From Mycobacterium sp. Marseille-P9652 (GTDB lineage: Bacteria > Actinomycetota > Actinomycetes > Mycobacteriales > Mycobacteriaceae), in assembly GCF_902652685.1 (NCBI RefSeq), contig NZ_CACRUY010000018.1, positions 1 to 64,000 of the forward strand: a DNA stretch of 64,000 bases, given 5' to 3'. The first letter of the stretch is position 1. Each line of letters opens with the position of its first letter. Made by a program: the position numbers and the translations under genes. Below the pieces are notes generated by a model that worked only from the letters and a program-made list of their open reading frames with translations, made no database searches and was not told the origin of the DNA. Of this stretch, positions 36,594-58,050 are shown one piece after another.

Positions 36594-36655
36594 CGCCGAA
36601 CGTGCATTCCTTGTGCATTCTCGGCCGATTTCTCGCGCTGAGTGCACGCTCGGCG
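36594..36655. repeat. 62-bp palindromic repeat, left flank of nuclease-like gene
   Basis: The element begins CGCCGAACGTGCA and ends TGCACGCTCGGCG; the ends are inverted repeats with one mismatch. A second 62-bp copy with the same ends lies at 37515-37576, so the pair brackets the gene at 36690-37550. Confidence 0.75.
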
Positions 36656-36689
36656 AAGGTGTCGGTACCCCACGCCACACTCGGCTGCC

Positions 36690-37550
36690 ATGGAACCGTT
36701 CATCGGGAGCGAGGCCGTCGCCTCCGGCATCGTCACGCCGTACGCCCTGCGCCGGCGTTTCGTCGCGATTCATCCCGACGTCTACATACCGGCCGGTGTG
36801 GATCTCACCGCTCGATCCCGCGCCAGCGCCGCCTGGTTGTGGTCGAGGCGGCGCGGCATCGTCGCAGGGCAGTCCGCGTCGGCGTTGCACGGCGCCAAGT
36901 GGGTCGACGATCGCACACCGGCGGTCCTGCTTTACGACTATCGCCGTCCGCCGGACAACATCATCACTTGGTCGGATCGCGTGACCGAGGACGAGGTGAC
37001 CTCAATTGAAGGCATCCCCGTGACCACGCCGGCGCGAACCGCCTTCGACCTCGCTTGCCGAACGCCGACGTCGACCGCGGTTGCGGCCATCGACGCGCTG
37101 TTGCGCGCAACAAAATTTGACGTGGCCGAAGCTCTTTCGCTCACCCAGCGGCGCAAGGGACATCGCCACGTCAGGCGCGCGCGGCGCGCCCTGACCCTCG
37201 TCGACGCGGGCGCCCAATCGCCTCGAGAGACCTGGCTGCGGCTGCTGGTCATCGAGGCCGGTTATCCGCGACCACGGACACAGATCCCGGTCTACGGCGA
37301 ATACGGGGAACTCGTTGCCGTCCTCGACATGGGCTGGGAGGACGTCAAAATTGCGCTCGAGTACGAGGGCGACCATCATCGGATTGATCGCCGGCAATTT
37401 CGGAGAGACATCGCCCGCTTCGAGGCGCTGCCAGACCTCGGCTGGATCACGATTCGGGTGAGCGCCGGCGACACGCAGGGCGGCATCCTGGCGCGCCTGG
37501 CCACAACTTGGGCGCGCCGAACGTGCACTCAGCGTCGAAAAACCGCGTGA
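36690..37550 (+). CDS. AbiEi-like/DUF559 (Vsr-fold) protein, copy 1
   Basis: The 286-residue protein has an N-terminal winged-helix-like part seen in AbiEi antitoxin-type proteins (ALRRRFVAIHPDVYI, then GIVAGQSASALHGAKW and GIPVTTPARTAFDLAC) and a C-terminal DUF559/Vsr-like nuclease part with LDMGWEDVK (Asp213, Asp218, Lys220), Glu224 and YEGDHHRID. This resembles a PD-(D/E)xK site. ATG 36690 is preferred over an upstream start. The gene is bracketed by 62-bp palindromic repeats and its last 12 codons and stop lie inside the right one. Rv3517 holds this position in M. tuberculosis; homology is not checked. DNA binding or cleavage is inferred. Confidence 0.72.
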   Translation: MEPFIGSEAVASGIVTPYALRRRFVAIHPDVYIPAGVDLTARSRASAAWLWSRRRGIVAGQSASALHGAKWVDDRTPAVLLYDYRRPPDNIITWSDRVTEDEVTSIEGIPVTTPARTAFDLACRTPTSTAVAAIDALLRATKFDVAEALSLTQRRKGHRHVRRARRALTLVDAGAQSPRETWLRLLVIEAGYPRPRTQIPVYGEYGELVAVLDMGWEDVKIALEYEGDHHRIDRRQFRRDIARFEALPDLGWITIRVSAGDTQGGILARLATTWARRTCTQRRKTA

Positions 37551-37576
37551 ATCTCGCGCTCAGTACACGCTCGACG
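37515..37576. repeat. 62-bp palindromic repeat, right flank of nuclease-like gene
   Basis: The element begins CGCCGAACGTGCACTCAGCG and ends CGCTCAGTACACGCTCGACG, imperfect inverted ends that mirror the copy at 36594-36655. The first 36 bases encode the C-terminus and stop codon of the nuclease-like gene. Confidence 0.75.
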
Positions 37577-56998: not shown

Positions 56999-57098
56999 CG
57001 CCGAGCGTTTCCCGCCGAGCGTTCCCGCCGAGCGTTTCCCGCCGAGTGTCACGCCAGAGTGGCGTTGGACGCCGAGCGCTGCGCTAGCGTGACGCTCG
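56999..57098. repeat. Short direct repeats and 26-bp palindrome at 3' end of nuclease-like gene
   Basis: Four direct copies of CGCCGAGCGTTTCC or a variant start at 56999, 57013, 57026 and 57040. ACGCCA-GAG-TGGCGT forms a hairpin from about 57051. At 57073-57098 arms CGAGCG and CGCTCG flank a central GCTAGC; this last palindrome holds the stop codon (57084-57086) of the nuclease-like gene. Confidence 0.75.
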
Positions 57099-57929
57099 AA
57101 GGGCGCGGGCCGCCGCCACCGCCCGAATGACGTCCATCGGCCGGTCCCCCGCCACCACTCGGACGTTTATCCAGCCAAGTCTTTCGATCTTCTCCTGGCG
57201 TCGGAGGTCCCACCTGTACTGTCGCTGATCGGTCCGATGCTGTTCGCCGTCGTATTCGGCGGCGACTTTCACGTCTTCCCACCCCATATCGAGATACGCG
57301 AAGACTTCACCGATCGCGTCGCAGACCGGAATCTGCGTCTGCGGCCGCGGAAAACCAGCTCGAATCAGCAGCAGTCGAAGCCAAGTCTCTCTGGGCGATT
57401 GCGAACCGCCGTCGACCAATTCGAACGCCTCTCGAGCTCTGCGGATACCGCGTCTACCGCGGCATCGCTCCGCCAACCGCTCGACCTCTGCGACTTTCAG
57501 GTCCGTGGCTCCCAACAACGCATCGATGGCCGCCACGGCCTCGTCGAGCGAGTACCAGCATGCCAAATCCAGCGCCGTCCGCGCCGGCGTCGTCACCGGT
57601 ACGCCGTCAACGACGGTAACCTCGTCGTCGTCGATACGGCCACCGCGAACCACTATCCCGGGCAGAGGGTTTCGGTTGGTGTGCAAGATTTCGAGAGGCC
57701 TCGACGGTTCAATCCACCTAGCGCCGTACACAGCCGAAGCGGTAAGTCCCGCCACGATGCCACGGCGTCGTGACCATATCCACCCCGCTCGTGCCCGAAC
57801 GATCGGACTCTGCTCGAGGCCGGGATTGGCATAGACGTCGCGGAACAGCCTGGTGTAGTGAGTGCGCAGCGCGCTCTTGAGAACCTCACCATTCGCGACA
57901 GCCTCGCTACCCACAAATGGCTCTGACAT
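57084..57929 (-). CDS. AbiEi-like/DUF559 (Vsr-fold) protein, copy 2
   Basis: The 281-residue protein is a clear paralogue of the one at 36690-37550: EPFVGSEAVANGEV, WIWSRRRGIVAGLTASAVYGARW, GVPVTTPARTALDLACW, SQSPRETWLRLLLIRAGFPRPQTQIPV (in parts) and LDMGWEDVKVAAEYDGEQHR. The last has the same Asp-Asp-x-Lys...Glu layout of a Vsr/PD-(D/E)xK site. ATG 57929 is the start. Like copy 1 it sits at a junction between sterol genes and is bracketed by palindromic repeats, and its stop codon is the TAG of the repeat centre GCTAGC. Function is inferred only: antitoxin-like DNA binding plus possible nuclease activity. Confidence 0.72.
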   Translation of the reverse strand: MSEPFVGSEAVANGEVLKSALRTHYTRLFRDVYANPGLEQSPIVRARAGWIWSRRRGIVAGLTASAVYGARWIEPSRPLEILHTNRNPLPGIVVRGGRIDDDEVTVVDGVPVTTPARTALDLACWYSLDEAVAAIDALLGATDLKVAEVERLAERCRGRRGIRRAREAFELVDGGSQSPRETWLRLLLIRAGFPRPQTQIPVCDAIGEVFAYLDMGWEDVKVAAEYDGEQHRTDQRQYRWDLRRQEKIERLGWINVRVVAGDRPMDVIRAVAAARALRASR

Positions 57930-57988
57930 GGCGGCAGCGTTCCACCTGGCGCCACGGCCGTCACTTCACCACTCGCCAACGGTCCACA

Positions 57989-58050
57989 GCGTCACGCCAG
58001 TGTGACGCTCGGCGCCGGCGGCCACGCTGGCGTGACGCTCGGCGCCGAGA
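57989..58050. repeat. Two 30-bp tandem palindromic repeats, upstream flank of nuclease-like gene
   Basis: GTGACGCTCGGCGCC occurs at 58002-58016 and again at 58032-58046, a 30-bp period. GCGTCAC (57989-57995) and GTGACGC (58002-58008) form a hairpin with a 6-base loop. The period equals that of the repeat at 28651-28710. Confidence 0.75.

Follow-up and report, generated by a model that had tools for sequence, protein, structure and literature searches.

A gene for a predicted nuclease lies between two copies of a palindrome in the 64-kb window (the whole stretch of DNA analysed here), and the locus raises the question of how gene and palindromes are related. It is an open question how short palindromes such as REPs multiply and persist in the genomes of bacteria; to our knowledge only HUH enzymes have so far been tied to REP-like palindromes.

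The window gene (36690..37550, plus strand) begins with ATG and encodes 286 amino acids followed by a stop codon. An element of palindrome family F1, which also occurs solo elsewhere, was found at each end, at 36594..36655 on the left and 37515..37576 on the right (neither with an assigned strand), so that the description given in an earlier sequence-only reading, a 62-bp palindrome at each end and a single gene inside, was confirmed with both elements measuring exactly 62 bp. The right palindrome covers the last 36 nt of the gene and thus encodes its last residues. The same end pattern, CGCCGARCGTGCA, had been claimed for both elements; it is exact at three of the four palindrome ends and has no other exact match in the 64-kb window, whereas the outer end of the right palindrome carries two mismatches to it. 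The inner arms are imperfect in both elements, each of which has 16 matching pairs among its 22 outer ones, a degree of pairing that a single element reaches in 87 of 3000 random 155-nt windows of the genome (2.9%). The strength of the window case is the matching left-right pair (flank score of 26 with the correct start) and its recurrence at the paralogues, not one element alone. The neighbouring genes encode an enoyl-CoA hydratase and a cytochrome P450 according to Pfam, the names echA19 and cyp142 coming from the earlier reading only.

Directly 3' of the left palindrome is a TGTCGG box with a promoter-like appearance (36660..36665, plus strand), followed by CACACT (36676..36681, plus strand), a possible -10 box picked out by eye, with similar letters seen by eye in orthologues. 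A TGTCGG at positions -50 to -5 relative to the start of the protein match was found at 78 of 136 loci compared to 13 of 604 random windows, and the box is likely a shared promoter part. Across the loci the median position at which the left palindrome ends is -41 relative to the match start. This position next to the box, together with the AbiEi-like region of the protein, is what a purely regulatory role would lead one to expect, in which the palindromes are operators for an AbiEi-like self-regulator and the nuclease-like half serves as a dimerisation or effector domain; the antitoxin of AbiE, a type IV toxin-antitoxin system, binds inverted repeats at its promoter. We consider this role improbable, as it does not account for a second copy of the palindrome at the stop codon, and further evidence against it is given below.

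The protein was predicted by the sequence-only reading to have an AbiEi-like N-terminus and a Vsr/DUF559-like C-terminus, and this is borne out by Pfam and PADLOC matches, some of them marginal or below cut-off. The AbiEi_1 match (residues 92-167, 36963..37190, plus strand; E 1.6e-4) is marginal by Pfam because it scores 22.3 bits against a cut-off of 22.2, and the match to REase_MTES_1575, a Vsr-type PD-(D/E)xK family (residues 190-259, 37257..37466, plus strand; E 3.7e-4), scores 21.0 bits, below the curated cut-off of 38.2. Both matches recur with varying strength in six paralogues, two of which pass the DUF559 cut-off, and the PADLOC AbiEi profiles match the window protein with a best value of 2.3e-12. 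MTES_1575 is listed among the Vsr-fold nucleases in PMC3710099. A sequence search gave no relatives of known structure at E 0.1, and NCBIfam and PHROGs have no family for the window protein. No HUH/Y1 family and no DDE or HUH transposase of the insertion sequence or MITE type was found by Pfam among the seven proteins of this family in the genome, and the conserved residues are acidic or histidine.

Asp213, Asp218, Lys220 and Glu224 had been put forward as the PD-(D/E)xK residues. D213 is invariant and position 224 is always acidic (E in 46 and D in 5 of the 51 aligned sequences), but D218 and K220 are kept in only 41 and 42 of the 51 respectively. Since these two vary whereas all 51 sequences have E180, D213, H230 and D240, we would sooner take E180/D213/E224 together with H230 and D240 as the candidate catalytic set, and this invariance argues against a nuclease-like half with a purely regulatory function. 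The gene is under purifying selection, as the median dN/dS of the homologues is 0.128 over 87 pairs. With the window protein as query, matches were found in 6 of 72,556 plasmid records and 1 of 50,697 phage records, and the gene is mostly chromosomal.

AbiEi-like and nuclease halves resemble the parts of defence systems, in line with the PADLOC match, and the protein might therefore be imagined as an anti-phage nuclease that attacks incoming DNA, with the palindromes as self-marks or decoys. We find this scarcely credible, as the two genes adjoining the window gene are metabolic, neither of them an AbiEii toxin gene, and a private palindrome for every paralogue would be left unexplained. The AbiE system itself shares the AbiEi-like region and differs from the present case in the nuclease fusion, the second palindrome behind the gene and the genome-wide solo palindromes found here. 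VsrA of Caulobacter, a DUF559 protein for which a mismatch-repair role tied to a cytosine methyltransferase has been proposed, shares the DUF559/PD-(D/E)xK nuclease, whereas no palindromic repeats are described in the accessible part of that report (PMC12907096). Neither of the two neighbours of the window gene is a cytosine methyltransferase gene.

Seven genes of this family were found in the genome (5.70 Mb in 128 contigs), two of them within the window. The second (57084..57929, minus strand) encodes 281 amino acids, is 53% identical to the window gene and has a flank score of 33; its bracket palindromes, of family F2 and without assigned strand, lie at 57040..57101 on the 3' side and 57988..58044 on the 5' side. 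Three close direct copies of CCGCCGAGCGTTTC-like units adjoin its palindrome at 56999-57038 of the window. Each of the seven genes lies between elements of roughly 60 bp whose sequence differs gene by gene. The bracket pair of L007 consists of nearly perfect palindromes, whereas the palindromes of L004, L005 and L006 are imperfect, with 11 to 17 of 22 pairs, and the pair of L006 is asymmetric and inverted. The sequence-only reading had asked whether CGCCGARCGTGCA palindromes flank each homologue; palindromes usually do flank the homologues, but since every gene has its own, CGCCGARCGTGCA marks only the family of the window gene. Thirteen family genes were fetched from another genome, G065 (L403-L415), and several of them have visibly different pairs of their own, for example L404, L407, L408, L409 and L413.

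The left-right flank scores of all seven genes range from 20 to 50, compared to a maximum of 18 among 571 called ORFs in a sample of the same genome scored in the same way; these ORF calls were crude, as they missed the second gene as well as the one for the enoyl-CoA hydratase and included the window gene with a wrong upstream start, at which it scored 18 instead of 26. This difference bears on whether the elements are ordinary transcription-end hairpins or chance symmetry in a G+C-rich genome whose position around the gene is incidental. Weak symmetry is indeed common in this genome, as the random windows reaching 16 of 22 pairs indicate, but matched pairs of this strength are confined to the gene family in that comparison, and we regard such an origin as highly improbable.

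Homologues were found in 60 of the 60 genus genomes searched, with 2 to 17 per genome. Fifty-six of them were scored (7 from the own genome, 29 best hits of other genomes and 20 further ones, mostly from complete genomes): the flanks are more alike than the 95th percentile of 54 far-window pairs in 41 of the 56 and exceed the maximum of those pairs in 37. A palindrome with at least 17 of 22 outer pairs, which occurs in 0.6% of 3000 random windows, was observed on the left of 31 homologues, on the right of 29 and on both sides of 17. Fifteen homologues have no matching pair; most of these keep one palindrome by eye, and none is seen by eye at L174.

A second set comprised the 80 best loci out of at least 554 named ones that had been confirmed, counting five whose flank is cut by a contig end. 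Here 72 of the 80 score above the maximum of 72 far windows and eight are without a matching pair; a palindrome of at least 17 of 22 pairs is present in at least one flank at 72 loci and in both at 32, compared to none of the 72 far windows on either side. The two sets contain orthologues of one another, and once the ten loci holding the same gene as the first set are removed, 63 of 70 loci still exceed the far-window maximum. The check proposed by the sequence-only reading, a search for palindromes around the homologues, is therefore strongly positive within the genus, and this genus-wide bracketing supports its suggestion of a nuclease-driven element or a repeat-tending system like that of RAYT and REPs. 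The window case is one instance of a general rule, namely that in the genus the gene usually lies between two copies of a roughly 60-bp palindrome that is private to the gene.

Beyond the genus, the order has homologues in 113 of 121 genomes and 44 of 49 genera, and the phylum in 83 of 198 genomes (68 of the 147 actinobacterial genera sampled). In terms of left-right likeness, which is the measure used outside the genus and not one of palindromy, 10 of the 20 loci sampled in other genera of this order are above the control maximum of 20 and two equal it, and elsewhere in the phylum 13 of 25 loci are above the control maximum of 17 and 12 are not. Clear palindromes were seen at several of these loci (for example L188, L202 and L204), and others have flanks that repeat without being clearly palindromic. 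As about half of the loci fail outside the genus, either the rule is weaker there or the gene ends are less well placed.

If each palindrome belongs to its gene, the two should vary together, and several observations indicate that they do. The strict two-arm pattern of F1 is present in every one of the 16 other genomes whose orthologue reaches at least 58% identity (mean 6.1) and in 19 of the 43 genomes without such an orthologue (mean 1.3; p 9e-7), some of these 19 having visibly different inner sequences. Among 2,880 pairs from 103 loci at strictly different sites, with palindromes taken as alike at a score of at least 20, similar palindromes were found in none of the 51 pairs below 40% protein identity, 9 of 797 at 40-50%, 91 of 1067 at 50-55%, 125 of 726 at 55-60%, 99 of 225 at 60-70% and 13 of 14 above 70% (70-90%). 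Protein and palindrome distances at different sites are correlated (Mantel rho 0.43, p 0.001), and this co-variation is carried mainly by the N-terminal half of the protein, for which the partial value is 0.40 compared to 0.13 for the C-terminal nuclease half. Co-variation of this kind could also come from gene and palindromes travelling together, without recognition.

Solo palindromes were also compared with genes. When five solos at other sites were set against 156 gene loci, among which the genomes tested were over-represented, the best-matching bracket belonged to a gene of the same genome for four of them. L116 matches L397 with a score of 32 on both flanks (next best 21), L315 matches L173 with 46 on the left flank only (next 15), L319 matches L159 with 23 (next best 15), and L107 matches L407 with 26, nearly tied with a 24 from another genome. 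The best bracket for the fifth solo, L313 of G001, is not from its own genome, four of the seven genes of G001 being among the 156 loci.

Solos were sought in 864 kb (800 kb fetched plus the window), or 15% of the genome, as pairs of family arms with at most two mismatches per arm. Seven pairs were found for F1, two of which are the window brackets, four for F2, possibly including the window's own bracket, one for F4 and three each for F5 and F6, whereas the reversed-arm control gave none in any of the seven families. At three mismatches the counts are five for F4, five for F5 and eight for F6, some of them overlapping or doubtful, with 0, 0 and 1 in the respective controls. F3 (4 versus 4) and F7 (0) show no solos above control in these 864 kb. 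Five of the seven families are thus also dispersed as solo palindromes, and the genome as a whole contains 17 exact F1 two-arm sites. Family-arm and 22-pair scores were used to recognise the elements. A gapped self-alignment score was too weak; a strict perfect-hairpin scan of the 864 kb gave only a modest excess over control, because the real elements have imperfect inner arms. A family-free search, which relied on the same crude ORF calls, returned 23 strong intergenic palindromes, 14 of which match one of the seven resident families; 13 of the 23 also match a bracket from other genomes, and a match to a resident family therefore shows no specificity. Identical palindromes equally common away from such genes, with no enrichment, had been named as evidence against the proposal. 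Palindromes far from the genes are common, but by themselves they are no objection to a RAYT-REP-like arrangement because at least some of them are dispersed members of the families of resident genes.

The solos are mostly located outside promoters. Twenty-one picked solos include 10 between convergent genes, 6 between tandem genes, 1 between divergent genes and 4 inside called ORFs (the calls are crude), compared to 64 convergent, 217 tandem and 108 divergent among 389 background gaps; a second, partly overlapping F1 list that includes the two brackets gives 9, 6, 1 and 2 respectively. This avoidance of promoters speaks against palindromes that act only as operators. Transcription-end hairpins would agree better with it, as the solos often lie just behind stop codons and many are between convergent genes. 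Intrinsic terminators are nevertheless not supported, as none of the 36 ends of 18 F1 copies has a T-rich tail, and the family-level identity between unrelated sites, which the reversed-arm control lacks, also argues against chance or ordinary hairpins. Arm pairs do not co-vary within the 18 F1 copies beyond column composition (80.3% paired against 79.7% when shuffled), which argues against a required hairpin.

The sequence-only reading had further proposed that block ends might coincide with differences between otherwise syntenic strains, and this was found at some sites. At the window site, 26 filled loci among the 30 of L067-L096 were inspected and palindromes were seen by eye on both sides in 25, the right one being missing in L086. 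Of 20 further regions of this site 14 were inspected, and in 13 of these the two neighbours are adjacent and the gene is absent; at least 10 of these 13 gene-free sites contain, by eye, a palindrome of another family. In the fourteenth, G080, the middle of the gene has been lost and both palindromes are kept.

Differences of this kind were seen between G134 and G017. At one site the flanks are 92-94% identical and the block is inverted and 76.7% identical, the alignment of the inverted block ending within 7 bases of the outer ends of the palindromes. In a 120-kb comparison of the two genomes, one G017 block corresponds to a solo palindrome of the same family in G134, with some 15 extra bases in its centre, and the block at the site of the window's second gene is replaced by a 50-bp relic in G134. 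No target-site duplication is evident by eye at the junctions in this comparison, where divergence could hide a short one. At the solo-replaced site, filled alleles are present in G017, G031, G047 and G010 and same-family solos in G134, G051 and G023; the 30 loci compared there comprise 4 filled sites, 2 same-family solos (G051 and G023), 3 palindromes of another family, 8 short gaps without a clear palindrome, 3 ambiguous cases and 10 with the flank missing. At the site of the second gene, 14 of 30 loci contain the gene, 3 have a short empty site and 13 lack the flank. Close relatives thus differ by the palindrome-gene-palindrome block as a whole, which may lie in either orientation and in whose place a single solo palindrome of its family can stand. 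Such exchange would remain unexplained if the palindromes were only operators. Alignments of two close species pairs, covering about 97 kb and 45 kb, showed no clean gain of a single 60-bp solo.

Several other arrangements were observed at such sites. Instead of the block at C23:70582-71424 of G017, G134 has an AraC-like frame (first residues) and then an F6-like palindrome; a half-size palindrome lies at the site of the second gene in L351; and in L111 two inverted F6-like palindromes surround a third palindrome with no gene. Two different blocks of G031 (L045 and L164) are adjoined on the right by one and the same IS-like sequence, which interrupts one palindrome, as if this insertion sequence prefers block sites.

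Filled and same-family solo alleles at one site are what a homing-type selfish gene would produce, and this is the main rival explanation: the nuclease would cut chromosomes carrying an unoccupied palindrome, or none, repair would copy the block in, and the solos would be unfilled targets or scars of recombination between brackets. A diverged block of opposite orientation within nearly identical flanks is likewise what a symmetric target would allow, and Vsr-type free-standing homing enzymes such as I-Bth0305I are known. These enzymes sit in introns or phage genes; they share with the present system the expected Vsr-type fold and a block that is present or absent at defined sites, and they differ in that here two copies of a target-like palindrome surround a gene on the chromosome and solo copies are scattered elsewhere. 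We think homing a rather unlikely account of the whole. Each family has one gene in this genome and five families have several further palindromes, and most solos therefore probably did not arise as scars of gene copies; on each side of the gene there is a whole palindrome instead of half a target. Purifying selection and the presence of the family, if not of each gene, in every genus genome searched also fit a resident gene better than a selfish one that is cyclically lost, and matches on plasmids and phages are rare. The homing-type reading of the filled and solo alleles may nevertheless describe part of the same process.

Our preferred explanation, which we hold to be probable without being certain of it, is that each gene of the family encodes a palindrome-specific nuclease and that gene and palindromes together form a repeat-tending system. 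Most likely, to judge from the sequences, the nuclease would read its palindrome through the N-terminal half and nick or cut there, and repair would spread the palindromes and exchange the blocks. The AbiEi-like half would bind the symmetric palindrome, probably as a dimer on conserved half-sites, which in F1 would be the outer 13 bp and the inner GCGA/TCGC, and the Vsr-type half would nick or cut at it. Repair or strand transfer would then copy solo palindromes in trans into new intergenic sites, as is thought for RAYTs and REPs, and would also copy the whole block into sites of other chromosomes. As the left palindrome, which ends about 35-40 nt before the start, adjoins the promoter-like TGTCGG box, protein bound there would probably also limit the gene's own expression. 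The recognition step is supported indirectly; we infer the cutting and copying steps.

The system resembles REP/RAYT in layout but is not one. A REPtron consists of a usually single-copy RAYT gene associated with dispersed REPs (PMC8266576), and that layout is found here, with a gene flanked by its own palindromes and dispersal shown for five of seven families. Further features shared with the REPtrons of PMC8266576 and PMC3733652 are a gene flanked by palindromes of its associated family, usually one gene per family, solos in intergenic DNA, and a protein and palindrome specific for each other (here as suggested by co-variation). It is not a REPtron because it lacks the defining HUH enzyme and, in F1, the GTAG tag: the RAYT is an HUH enzyme with a catalytic tyrosine, whereas an AbiEi-like plus PD-(D/E)xK protein is found here, and the GTAG (or CGTC) foot tag has no counterpart in F1, the family checked, whose consensus begins CGCCGARCGTGCA. 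The F1 elements also differ in being 62 bp long with conserved ends of about 13 bp, several different gene-palindrome pairs occur per genome, and the whole block varies as a unit. TIRtrons (PMC3733652) are alike in that long terminal repeats, which likewise make up families of moderate abundance, enclose a nuclease gene, and differ in encoding tyrosine transposases, the ends here being palindromic and the enzyme family unrelated. Searches of an open-access library, one without bioRxiv and most subscription journals, turned up no account of DUF559/AbiEi genes that have palindromes on either side.

We know of no role for the PD-(D/E)xK nuclease fold in spreading palindromes. An unrelated nuclease family now appears to be paired with its own palindromes; the family itself was found in 60 of 60 genus genomes and 68 of the 147 actinobacterial genera sampled. 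Our opinion is evenly balanced on the wider proposition that Actinobacteria carry a second, independently evolved REP-like class, in which families of palindromes of about 60 bp would each be made and spread by their own PD-(D/E)xK nuclease with an exchangeable AbiEi-like recognition half, with several to more than 12 pairs per genome and both palindromes and whole blocks being moved. The many natural gene-palindrome pairs would provide a ready panel for studying how a protein reads a symmetric site of roughly 60 bp, and the system would offer a test of whether a plain nuclease and host repair suffice for the spread of a repeat. A function would also be suggested for many proteins whose present annotation is only DUF559 or AbiEi-like.
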